IMG/VR virus record: IMGVR_UViG_3300036770_004931
Location: 1 to 23,653 of that record
Direction: 5' to 3' (one strand)
Length of the DNA stretch: 23,653 bases
From: a virus
Both the position numbers and the translations under genes were made by a program. Shown here one piece after another: positions 2,905-10,144 of the stretch; the stretch's first letter is position 1, and every line of letters starts with the position of its first letter. The notes below the pieces were generated by a model. The model saw only the letters and a list, made by a program, of their open reading frames with translations. It was not told where the DNA came from and ran no database searches.

Positions 2905-4890
2905 ATGGACGTTAAAAATAAAGTTATTTACTTTAATTCCAGGTTTACTACCAAAGCGGCCGACGAGGAGTCTGATGGTATAACCATTGAAGGTTATGCG
3001 TCCACTAATGACGTTGACAGAGTAGGCGATGTAGTACCTACTAGTGTTTGGGAAAAGGGTTTAAAGAATTATCTTAAAAATCCTATTATCCTAGCATACC
3101 ACAATCATCAGATGCCTGTAGGTAAAATGGTTGAACACCGTGTAGATGAGCGGGGACTGTGGATCAAAGCCACTATCTCGGATGCTGCAGACAATGTGTA
3201 TAAACTAGTTAAAAAGGGAATCCTAAGTGCCTTTAGTATTGGGTTTAGGGTCAAGGATGCCGAGTATAACAACGCCGCAGAAGTATTTTTAATCAAAGAC
3301 CTAGAATTACATGAAATTAGTGTGGTTAGTATTCCTGCTAATCAAAACACGCTTTTTAGTCTATCCAAAGCATTTGACAGTGCAGAGGAATTTGAGTTAT
3401 TTAAACAGCAATTTGCAGTTAGTGATCAATCAGCTAAAGGGCTTGATAATCACGCCGTAGCAAATAGCGCAAACGAGAGGAAATGGAACATGGATCCAAA
3501 AGAACTAGAACTTATGTTAGCTAAAGCTACAGCAAGTGCTGCTGAGCAAGCTGCCAAAGCTGTTGTAGAAGCACAAGCTAAAGCACTGGCCGAAAAAGCT
3601 GCTCAAGAAAAAGCAGAAGCCGAGCTACAAGCAAAAATCAAAGCTGCTGTTGCCTCAGTGCAAACAGTTGACACAGGTGCAGAGCGCCTACTAGCCGACG
3701 TTGAAAAGCGTCTTAGCGAGCAAGCCGAAGCACATAAGAGTGCACTAGAAGGCCTAGAAGCTACATTACGCGAAAAAGCTGCTGAACTAGAAGCAGTTCA
3801 AAAGAGTCGTATGCAGTTTACTGACAAGCGTGATGGCGAAGGTGCCACATATGCAGAAAAAGAAGCCGCAGTGTTTATTAGCAAAATTACTAATAAGCCT
3901 ATTGAAGAAACCAAGTACGCTAAAAGTCTAGTACAAAAGTACGCTAGTGCTGGTACAGCAGGTGCGGCTGGATCAGGCGGCGGTGCAGGTGGTGCTATTC
4001 GCTTACCAGGTCAAACTTGGGAAACCGAAGTTAGCACAAACATGGAAAACGAAATTCGCCGTCAACTAGTAGTTGCTGGTACAATTCGTCAAATTGCCAT
4101 GACACAGCCATTTATGAAGCTGCCAATTAACCCAGATGCTGGTGCTGATGCAACTTGGGTTACAAATGCACAGTTTGGTGGATCAAACAGCAGCGGTTCA
4201 CCAGTTACACATGCGCTAAAAGACATTGAAATCAGCAGTGCAAAACTAGCTACCAAAGAGTACATTGCCTTTGAAGAAGAGGAAGATGGACTTATTGCAC
4301 TAGTGCCACTTATTCGCGATGCGATCACACGTCGTATGGCTAAGACACTAGACAAGTCAATGCTGCTAGGTAATGATGTTGGTGCTACAACATATGCAGC
4401 TGGTATCAATGGCCTAGCATATTATGATGATAGCGCTAGTAGCAGCCCAACAGTTGCTGTTGGTGGTAAACTAACGTTTCAAAAATTCTTAGATGCACGT
4501 CGTGCACTAGGTGTTTGGGGACTAGAACCCAGCGAACTAATCATGTTCGTTAGCCAAGCAGCTTACTATGACTTACTAGAAGATAATACTTTCCAAAGCA
4601 CAGATAAAATCAGTGAGTCACGTAATACATTAATTACCGGCCAAATTGGATTACTAACACAAACTCCAGTAGTTGTTACCGCACAGATGACTGGCGTAGC
4701 AGCTAATGATGCACTAGCAGTGCTAGTTAATCCACGTAACTTCGTAGTTGGTAATCATCGCGCTATGCGTATCGACACAGACGATGAAGTAATTAACCAG
4801 CGTCGTGTTATTGTTGCAAGTATGCGTGTTGCCATGAGTCGCCTAACAAGCAACGAAGGTAGCGGTGTTGTAACAATTCGTTACGTTTAA
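2905..4890 (+). CDS. Prohead protease fused to scaffold and major capsid protein
   Basis: 661 residues carrying three functions in one frame. Residues 1-150 are a U35-type prohead protease: His66 in AYHNHQMPVGK, Ser111 in SAFSIGFR and Glu137 in LELHEISVV form the expected catalytic triad. Residues 150-195 are a linker. Residues 196-305 are an Ala/Glu/Lys-rich coiled coil like the HK97 delta (scaffold) domain, which the protease should remove. A Gly/Ala-rich spacer (about 350-365) leads to the HK97-fold shell protein (about 370-661). In HK97 itself protease and shell are separate genes. Here an in-frame ATG at 3490 (Met196) with an AGGA ribosome site eight bases upstream could make a 466-residue scaffold-shell protein alone. 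Leucine codon use in the capsid part is strongly CTA-biased, as expected for a highly expressed gene. Confidence 0.92.
   Translation: MDVKNKVIYFNSRFTTKAADEESDGITIEGYASTNDVDRVGDVVPTSVWEKGLKNYLKNPIILAYHNHQMPVGKMVEHRVDERGLWIKATISDAADNVYKLVKKGILSAFSIGFRVKDAEYNNAAEVFLIKDLELHEISVVSIPANQNTLFSLSKAFDSAEEFELFKQQFAVSDQSAKGLDNHAVANSANERKWNMDPKELELMLAKATASAAEQAAKAVVEAQAKALAEKAAQEKAEAELQAKIKAAVASVQTVDTGAERLLADVEKRLSEQAEAHKSALEGLEATLREKAAELEAVQKSRMQFTDKRDGEGATYAEKEAAVFISKITNKPIEETKYAKSLVQKYASAGTAGAAGSGGGAGGAIRLPGQTWETEVSTNMENEIRRQLVVAGTIRQIAMTQPFMKLPINPDAGADATWVTNAQFGGSNSSGSPVTHALKDIEISSAKLATKEYIAFEEEEDGLIALVPLIRDAITRRMAKTLDKSMLLGNDVGATTYAAGINGLAYYDDSASSSPTVAVGGKLTFQKFLDARRALGVWGLEPSELIMFVSQAAYYDLLEDNTFQSTDKISESRNTLITGQIGLLTQTPVVVTAQMTGVAANDALAVLVNPRNFVVGNHRAMRIDTDDEVINQRRVIVASMRVAMSRLTSNEGSGVVTIRYV
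3475..3492 (+). promoter_or_regulatory. Internal ribosome site and start for scaffold-capsid protein
   Basis: GAGAGGAAA (3475-3483) precedes an in-frame ATG at 3490-3492; AGGA at 3478-3481 gives an 8-base spacer. The product would begin MDPKELELM, which resembles the start of free-standing HK97-type capsid proteins (short helical delta domain). It falls exactly at the protease/capsid boundary. Use of this start is inferred, not shown. Confidence 0.55.
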
Positions 4891-4899
4891 TTTTAGTTT

Positions 4900-4929
4900 A
4901 AGCAGAACTCGCAAGAGTTCTGCTTTTAA
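4900..4929 (+). terminator. Hairpin with GCAA loop after the capsid gene
   Basis: AAGCAGAACTC (4900-4910) pairs perfectly with GAGTTCTGCTT (4915-4925) around a GCAA (GNRA) tetraloop and is followed by two further T residues and an AT-rich stretch. The stem has 11 pairs. It may be a partial terminator or a 3' stabiliser of the capsid mRNA, reducing expression of the connector genes relative to capsid. The T-tract (TTTT, 4924-4927) is short, so termination is probably incomplete. Confidence 0.6.
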
Positions 4930-4963
4930 AAGTTTAGTAAATTAGGCTTTTAAAAGCAGAACT
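4916..4963 (+). promoter_or_regulatory. Alternative 17-bp hairpin overlapping the capsid-gene hairpin
   Basis: AGTTCTGCTTTTAAAAG (4916-4932) is the exact reverse complement of 4947-4963, with a 14-base loop. It uses the 3' arm of the 4900-4925 hairpin, so the two structures cannot form together. The second structure ends 7 bases before the AAGGA ribosome site (4971-4975) of the next gene. The layout resembles a terminator/antiterminator pair, but no ligand or protein partner can be read from the sequence. Confidence 0.5.
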
Positions 4964-4982
4964 TGTTCTTAAGGATAAATAA

Positions 4983-5546
4983 ATGGCTGACCTAATTACA
5001 AGAGCAGACTTTAAAAAGTATTTGGGACTTACCACCAATAACAGAGATGCTGAAATTGATTTGCTAATACCTAAAATTAGTCAGCTAATTAAAACTTATT
5101 GTCGCAGAACTTTTGTAGACTACTACGATGAATTAAAAACTGAAGTTCACAGTGGCGGACTAGCAGCAATCGTCCTAGAAGAAACACCTGTAGTAAGTGT
5201 AGATACTTTTAGTCTAAGCACAGATTATGGCCAAACTTACACGCCGCTAGTAGAATTTACAGACTATGTAGTAGACGGCTATAAAATAGTTTCACTAAAT
5301 CCCTATGGCTTTCGTGAATATATACGCGGCTATGAAGTAAGCTACTTTGCAGGATATGAGTCAACACCAGAAGACCTACAGCTAGCAGCATTTGACCTGC
5401 TAGAGTACTACATGAAAAATAATAGTGCAGTGCACGTTAATCGCGATGTAACACCTAATGTTACACAAATACAATATGTAGCTACTACAAACCTTCCAGC
5501 ACATATTAAGCGTGTACTAGATCAGTATATAGCGGATTATGCCTAA
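4983..5546 (+). CDS. Head-tail connector (gp6-like adaptor)
   Basis: 187 residues, mostly helical at the N-terminus (ADFKKYLGLTT, DAEIDLLIPKISQLIKTYC) with a beta-rich middle and the YEVSYFAGYESTPEDLQLAAFDLLEYY segment characteristic of HK97 gp6/SPP1 gp15-type adaptors. These form a ring under the portal after packaging. AAGGA at 4971-4975 is seven bases before the ATG. The stop TAA overlaps the next start by one base (TAATG), so translation is probably coupled. It is somewhat longer than minimal gp6 proteins (about 110 residues), because of extra beta sequence between residues 55 and 115. Confidence 0.75.
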   Translation: MADLITRADFKKYLGLTTNNRDAEIDLLIPKISQLIKTYCRRTFVDYYDELKTEVHSGGLAAIVLEETPVVSVDTFSLSTDYGQTYTPLVEFTDYVVDGYKIVSLNPYGFREYIRGYEVSYFAGYESTPEDLQLAAFDLLEYYMKNNSAVHVNRDVTPNVTQIQYVATTNLPAHIKRVLDQYIADYA

Positions 5547-9264: not shown

Positions 9265-9285
9265 AAGACCAGCGTTGCTGGTCTT
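9265..9285 (+). terminator. Hairpin after the major tail gene
   Basis: AAGACCAGC (9265-9273) and GCTGGTCTT (9277-9285) form a perfect 9-bp stem with loop GTT, 12 bases after the major tail stop. The following sequence (ATTAA) is not a real U-tract, so it is more likely an mRNA-stabilising or weakly attenuating hairpin than a strong terminator. Confidence 0.5.
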
Positions 9286-9722: not shown

Positions 9723-10075
9723 AAGTATTACTTAAAAATTATTTTCTAAACCAAGAAGTTAGCATGTCAAAAGAAAGTTATTTTGAAATGTGCGAAATGC
9801 TTGGTAACGAACCAATAGAAGCAGAAATACCAGTAGATTTTGATGATTTTCCTATGGAATTACAGCAAGCTATGATAGTTTATCGTATGTTGCGTGATGA
9901 ATGGGAAGGATTTAATGGATTATATCTTGGAAAAAGCTTTTTAGGTTTAACAGAAATATTTGAGTATACACAGATTAGTCACGATGATCGCAAATTAATA
10001 TTAATGTTGATAAGATTAATTGATAGCATACGTGGCGATCAAATTAATAAACGTCAGCAAAAGCCCATAAACTAA
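9303..10075 (+). CDS. Tail assembly chaperone, -1 frameshift long form (lambda G-T analogue)
   Basis: A -1 slip at 9689-9695 joins residues 1-131 of the short form to 126 residues read from 9695 to the TAA at 10073-10075, giving 257 residues (lambda G-T is 279). The T-like frame is open from 9686, 78 bases before its first ATG at 9764, and the upstream codons read sensibly into it (LFQEQFGQIEVLLKNYF, then NQEVSMSKESYFEMCEM), so it is translated by frameshift rather than from 9764. The T part has the acidic EAEIPVDFDDFP segment and the LRDEWEGFNGLYLG segment seen in many chaperones of this class. The ATG at 9764 has only a poor ribosome site. The ratio of long to short form is expected to matter for assembly, as in lambda. 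Confidence 0.85.
9689..9695 (+). promoter_or_regulatory. Programmed -1 frameshift site GGGAAAC
   Basis: Read as G GGA AAC in the frame of the short chaperone, this is a perfect X XXY YYZ slippery heptamer, close to lambda's GGGAAAG. A small hairpin TCCAA (9699-9703) / TTGGA (9711-9715) begins three bases downstream and might assist slipping. The short frame stops 24 bases after the heptamer. Confidence 0.85.
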
Positions 10076-10095
10076 TAGTAGTTTATGGGCTTTTT
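10059..10095 (+). terminator. Strong rho-independent terminator after the chaperone genes
   Basis: AAAAGCCCATAAAC (10059-10072) pairs perfectly with GTTTATGGGCTTTT (10081-10094), a 14-bp stem with an 8-base loop, ending in TTTTT. The stop codon TAA of the T-like frame (10073-10075) lies in the loop. It should end the head and early tail transcript here. Confidence 0.85.
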
Positions 10096-10115
10096 ATTGC
10101 AACAAATTTTTGCTG

Positions 10116-10144
10116 TTGACATTTTATCACCCTTGTGATATACT
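10116..10144 (+). promoter_or_regulatory. Strong sigma70 promoter for the tape measure and tip genes
   Basis: TTGACA (10116-10121) and TATACT (10139-10144) are separated by 17 bases, the optimal spacing. It lies 21 bases after the terminator and predicts a transcript start near 10151 with a 50-base leader; TGGAG (10191-10195) is the ribosome site for the tape measure at 10201. It separates the tape measure and tip genes from the head transcript. Confidence 0.8.
10125..10140 (+). promoter_or_regulatory. Candidate operator inside the tape-measure promoter
   Basis: TATCACCCTTGTGATA is a perfect 6-bp inverted repeat with a 4-base centre, lying between the -35 and -10 boxes and running into the -10. 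Half-site TATCAC recalls lambdoid CI/Cro operators, but the similarity is short. A bound dimer here would block RNA polymerase. A repressor cannot be identified in this window. Confidence 0.45.

Follow-up and report, generated by a model that had tools for sequence, protein, structure and literature searches.

Two hairpins sharing one strand form a conserved RNA element between the capsid and connector genes of uncultivated T5-like phages

The gap between the capsid and head-tail connector genes of an uncultivated virus contains two overlapping RNA hairpins that compete for one strand, and the same pair recurs at the same junction throughout a lineage of uncultivated T5-like phages. Both structures covary, the shared strand is retained even where the signature of an intrinsic terminator is absent, and T5 and related isolates carry a counterpart of the first hairpin only. 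We tentatively propose, with a confidence that stays a little short of even, that this intercistronic element combines a leaky terminator (hairpin 1, H1) with a second hairpin (H2) that forms on read-through RNA and separates the two messages, so that the dose of the connector is set below that of the capsid.

Results

The stretch of DNA analyzed here (referred to as the window) corresponds to the 23.7-kb record of an uncultivated virus and encodes a siphovirus head and tail module. The module comprises the terminase end, portal, a protease-capsid fusion, a head completion protein, tail terminator, major tail protein, tail chaperones, tape measure, and tip proteins, the last two having been named from size, position and domains. 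The genes called as capsid and connector on either side of the hairpins in the original prediction were upheld. Upstream lies a prohead protease (S78) fused to an HK97-type major capsid protein (2905–4890, plus strand, 661 aa), which ends 9 nt 5' of H1, and downstream lies a head completion or head-tail connector protein (4983–5546, plus strand, 187 aa; PF24163, phrog_442) with an ATG start codon at 4983.

The 661-aa capsid protein shares about 33–37% identity with T5-like records of Vibrio, Salmonella and Escherichia. Because of this similarity, and because the connector matches the Pfam head completion family PF24163, the lineage is regarded as T5-like. The head module also has the attributes of T5-like (Demerecviridae-related) phages, namely capsid and protease homology, a head completion protein beside the capsid, and the same gene order. 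A search of named phages with the capsid led to T5-like isolates, and searches of named phages with the DNA and with the connector protein gave no match. Among the cellular genomes searched, one contig binned as Verrucomicrobia (L236) carries the same element, but this bin is too weak a pointer to the host.

Several other features of the module were recorded. Protease and capsid form a single ORF in 251 loci of the window lineage (overlapping loci counted apart), whereas L051 and the T5-like isolates compared encode them separately. A sigma-70-like consensus promoter (TTGACA-18-TATAAT, 1224–1253) is located 5' of a small HNH-like ORF and the portal gene, and is a candidate for the start of the head operon. 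Positions 63–1738 hold a terminase fragment, followed by a minus-strand GIY-YIG ORF (365–1126) that scored just under the Pfam cut-off and by a small ORF with HNH-like motifs recognized by eye; these two ORFs are candidate homing-endonuclease-type insertions in the packaging region. A 9-bp hairpin (9265–9285) separates the major tail protein gene from the tail chaperone gene and may be a further weak stop that follows a structural gene with an abundant product. A perfect 16-bp hairpin with A- and T-tracts (10059–10094), of the bidirectional terminator type, overlaps the end of the tail chaperone gene, and a sigma-70-like promoter (TTGACA-17-TATACT, 10116–10144) follows 3' of it and 5' of the tape measure gene; hairpin and promoter together (10059–10144) likely mark a transcription-unit border.

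Both stems of the original prediction were found at the places that it gave. H1 (4900–4925, plus strand) is formed by pairing of 4900–4910 with 4915–4925 (11 bp, GCAA loop, −17.3 kcal/mol) and has the form of an intrinsic terminator, with four U at 4924–4927. H2 (4915–4964, plus strand) contains a 17-bp stem (4916–4932 with 4947–4963, 100% paired), which in folding extends to 22 bp (4915–4936 with 4943–4964) with G·U pairs near the loop, and its 5' arm contains the 3' arm of H1 together with the U-tract. The shared strand A' (4915–4925, plus strand) can thus pair either with 4900–4910 in H1 or with the outer 3' arm of H2. This outer arm, A2 (4954–4963, plus strand), is a second copy of AAGCAGAACT and rivals 4900–4909 for A'. 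As to the motif AGCAGAAC, which had been noted twice in sense and once reversed, the sense copy at 4901–4908 and the reverse complement at 4917–4924 were confirmed, and the second sense copy was relocated from 4956–4963 to 4955–4962.

The two overlapping hairpins are real and far beyond chance. The 111-nt region folds with −33.5 kcal/mol, compared to −19.6 ± 2.7 kcal/mol for 200 dinucleotide shuffles (z = −5.1, no shuffle as good). A scan for two hairpins, of ≥8 bp and ≥14 bp, with the 3' arm of the first overlapping the 5' arm of the second, returned a single site in the window, which is on the plus strand. The minus strand of the window and 0.95 Mb of Markov-1 copies gave no hit. In 1.38 Mb around the relatives, this architecture was found only at the capsid/connector junction, the lone match elsewhere being the same junction at the start of a locus. 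Three H2 sequence patterns, which would miss elements of like architecture but unrelated sequence in other phages, were also searched in 2.9 million viral contigs and matched at least 120, 94 and 5 stretches, respectively; among the matches listed, every site was directly 5' of the connector gene or 3' of the capsid gene. A search of the window and nine relatives against Rfam returned nothing above the gathering threshold, and no description of the element was found in the literature searched, whose coverage was partial.

The hairpin pair is a conserved RNA element. Gaps between capsid and connector genes were extracted from relatives in viral contigs of uncultivated T5-like phages, and H1 followed by H2 with overlapping arms was present in all 113 distinct upstream regions, 110 of which were parsed directly. 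Stems broken without compensation, which according to the original prediction would speak against the element, were looked for in the 113 gaps and are rare: a mismatch in L040 breaks the base of H1 and leaves H2 intact, one H1 mismatch occurs in L117 (among the parsed gaps), and a single H2 mismatch in L129. Besides L040 and L129, the near misses include L059 (50–151), where roughly 50 inserted nucleotides fold within the loop of H2 and neither H1 nor the basal duplex of H2 is disturbed; this insert had no match above threshold in Rfam. H1 is mostly 10–11 bp long in the relatives, often with a UUCG or GNRA loop, and H2 is a near-perfect duplex of 16–23 bp, the core of which adjoins H1 with zero nucleotides between them in 69 of 73 distinct gaps. 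The primary sequence is very different between clades, and the pairing is kept. A run of four U follows H1 in 67 of 110 relatives, and strand sharing is likewise kept in the 43 that lack it.

Mutual exclusion of the hairpins, as originally claimed, is complete in the small clade of the window, where the overlap is 11–12 nt, but only partial in most relatives. There, the overlap is mostly 4–8 nt and affects the base of H1 only, and a shortened H1 can therefore coexist with full H2.

The compensatory changes in related phages by which the original prediction was to be checked were found, in the shared strand as well as in the two stems. In an alignment of 74 rows, H2 had 254 double-change cells (80 ± 8 in shuffled alignments) and a covariation score of 0.585, compared to 0.176 when shuffled and at most 0.17 in slid registers. 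The score of H1 was 0.411 versus 0.248 when shuffled, and its support is weaker because a slid register reaches 0.33. Shared columns 35–38 pair with both partners in nearly all rows (A1, 63–69 of 71; A2, 65–71 of 71). A' and A2 changed along the same branches at column 38, with 11 and 12 steps when counted singly and 12 when counted jointly, compared to 23 if uncoupled. The ten lowest pairs of H2 include hardly any G·U, whereas its upper stem has many and A1:A' has 19 at one shared position, as though H2 had to prevail over H1. Sequences within the window's clade vary too little for this clade alone to show covariation. A first parsimony count was dropped, since the parser's register at the base of H1 shifts by one nucleotide between close relatives and inflated the number of concordant changes.

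These patterns bear on two explanations that assign no role to an exchange of RNA structures. The inverted repeat could be a DNA-level element such as a protein binding or cruciform site, for which the near-perfect Watson-Crick lower stem would be suitable. However, the pairing persists between clades of very different sequence, the repeat always has the sense orientation of the capsid gene, and the upper stem is rich in G·U pairs, as RNA stems are. We consider a function in DNA scarcely credible. Alternatively, H1 could be a plain leaky terminator and H2 functionless, with the match between A2 and A' a by-product of fold-back copying during replication, which perfects imperfect inverted repeats. 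Copying of the arms would be expected to leave outer H2 pairs nearly free of G·U and inner pairs with many, as observed, but the outer arms of close relatives change neither quickly nor in blocks, H2 is kept in all 113 gaps, and the basal duplex is retained around the large loop insertion of L059. Such an origin thus appears quite improbable to us.

At the junction that corresponds to the hairpin pair, after the major head protein gene, a putative rho-independent terminator is annotated in T5 (AY543070, 101563–101586). A terminator-type hairpin with a U-run was found there in T5 and eight other T5-like isolates, and an H2-like structure or a shared strand was absent from the junction in all nine. 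The isolates and the window lineage have the same junction, the same genes and an H1-type hairpin in common, with a U-tract in the isolates, the window and 67 of 110 relatives, whereas the gap measures about 57–66 nt in the T5-like isolates with annotated borders and 72–100 nt in the window lineage. As T5 and the isolates have the terminator hairpin without H2, H1 looks ancestral and H2 looks like a gain of the aquatic lineage, a loss in the isolates being the less likely alternative.

Discussion

The original prediction interpreted the hairpin pair as an attenuator, in which H1 as terminator and H2 as antiterminator would decide on transcription of the connector gene. Part of this interpretation was supported: two mutually exclusive, conserved structures exist 5' of the connector gene, and the capsid-side hairpin is of the terminator type, given its U-tract in the window and the terminator hairpin kept by T5-related isolates at the same spot. 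An antiterminator, however, can work only if it folds before the terminator has been completed. In the window the order of the strands is reversed, with the 3' arm of H2 (4947–4963) being made about 20 nt past the U-tract of H1 (4924–4927). H2 cannot prevent termination at H1, because this arm is transcribed only after the polymerase has passed the U-tract, and no consistent U-tract was found behind H2 in the relatives. A classic attenuator is therefore very unlikely. Transcription of the minus strand would give a suitable order, but that strand has neither a gene at the junction nor a U-tract after H1. Read-through of the capsid stop codon into the connector was ruled out by a further in-frame stop two codons on. 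What remains of the predicted tuning of connector against capsid output is that the position of the element suits the dosage of these two proteins, the capsid being needed in hundreds of copies per virion and the connector in few.

We infer the function of the element, including termination, leakiness, refolding order in cells, and processing or insulation, from its structure, position and conservation. H1 would fold once transcribed and, with the U-tract that is present in the window and about 60% of the relatives, would act as a leaky intrinsic terminator 3' of the capsid gene. Part of the transcripts would end after this gene, giving much shell protein and little connector, and the terminated messages would end in full H1 as a stable 3' end of the capsid message. 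Upon read-through, the downstream arm would be made and H2 would zip up, taking the base of the H1 3' arm (all of it in the window) and the U-tract. Stepwise folding predicts this order, with H1 forming first, then H1 together with the H2 core, and full exchange once about 4957–4963 has been made, so that H2 would act only on RNA already read through. The resulting near-perfect duplex, which ends just 5' of the connector ribosome site, would most likely separate the messages through an RNase III-type cut or as a nuclease roadblock. It would protect the capsid message from the 3' side and leave the connector message with a hairpin at its 5' side.

Termination is not the whole conserved function, because about 40% of the relatives lack UUUU after H1. 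These relatives keep the shared strand, and selection hence appears to act on the H1/H2 exchange itself and not on termination alone. The duplex has a fairly constant length, and its recognition irrespective of sequence would suit an RNase III-like dsRNA nuclease or a simple barrier to nucleases. The length of the H2 helix is at the short end for RNase III of Escherichia coli and counts against cutting by RNase III.

The main rival to processing or insulation is a translational switch, which we consider possible but unlikely. A ribosome ending the capsid gene would cover the 5' base of H1 and free A' for A2, and the longer H2 would reduce 30S entry; with few ribosomes on the capsid gene, H1 would close and the connector site would open. 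The spacing of the element is partly in line with this model. H2 ends 7–18 nt before the connector ATG in the relatives (most often 10–11 nt), and H1 most often starts 7–10 nt past the capsid stop codon, at the edge of a terminating ribosome, but the latter spacing is only loosely kept (4 to ≥23 nt). Strand sharing is also maintained where the U-tract is weak. Furthermore, the predicted energies of the H1 and H2 states tie (median difference −0.2 kcal/mol), so that either state may win in cells; this near-equality is partly built in by the repeated strand and is not counted as evidence for tuning. The position of the connector's ribosome-binding site argues against the switch: AAGGA (4971–4975, plus strand) is outside both hairpins, and H2 in the window ends 7 nt 5' of it.

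Known systems resemble the leaky stop followed by H2 formation in some of its steps. In the sib/tI retroregulation of int in phage lambda, a terminator hairpin forms on terminated RNA and a larger duplex only on read-through RNA, and the strand order and predicted stepwise folding of the window element have the same consequence. RNase III cutting at sib lowers the upstream gene int, whereas the upstream gene is needed in bulk here; there is no sequence relation between the two elements, and cutting is only proposed for ours. The leaky terminator of phage T7 gene 10 (T-phi) and the rplL-rpoB attenuator plus RNase III site each stand between an abundant upstream and a scarce downstream product. 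They share the leaky stop with the window element but have no overlapping second hairpin, and T7 uses its own polymerase. In E. coli, the ahpC and pflB messages are stabilized when RNase III cuts downstream of them, at sites that precede ahpF and pflA, respectively (PMC5371410). These sites likewise are intercistronic duplexes, cutting of the window element being only a proposal, and in contrast to it no strand sharing is described for them in the passages that deal with these sites (PMC5371410).

If a terminator hairpin that the polymerase has passed is dismantled by downstream RNA, and if this fixes the capsid-to-connector ratio, such a read-through-triggered rearrangement would represent a new class of element, structure-conserved in a large uncultivated T5-like lineage; we regard this broader claim as rather doubtful at present. 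Leaky terminators and ribosome sites are the usual explanation for how hundreds of capsid proteins and few connectors are obtained from one operon. The element described here would be a compact, strongly covarying answer to this dosage question, used by a whole aquatic phage lineage and missing from Rfam. It also marks this lineage, as H2 occurred only at this junction among the matches listed from 2.9 million viral contigs. Finally, it opens the fate of messages that read through a terminator to reporter tests.
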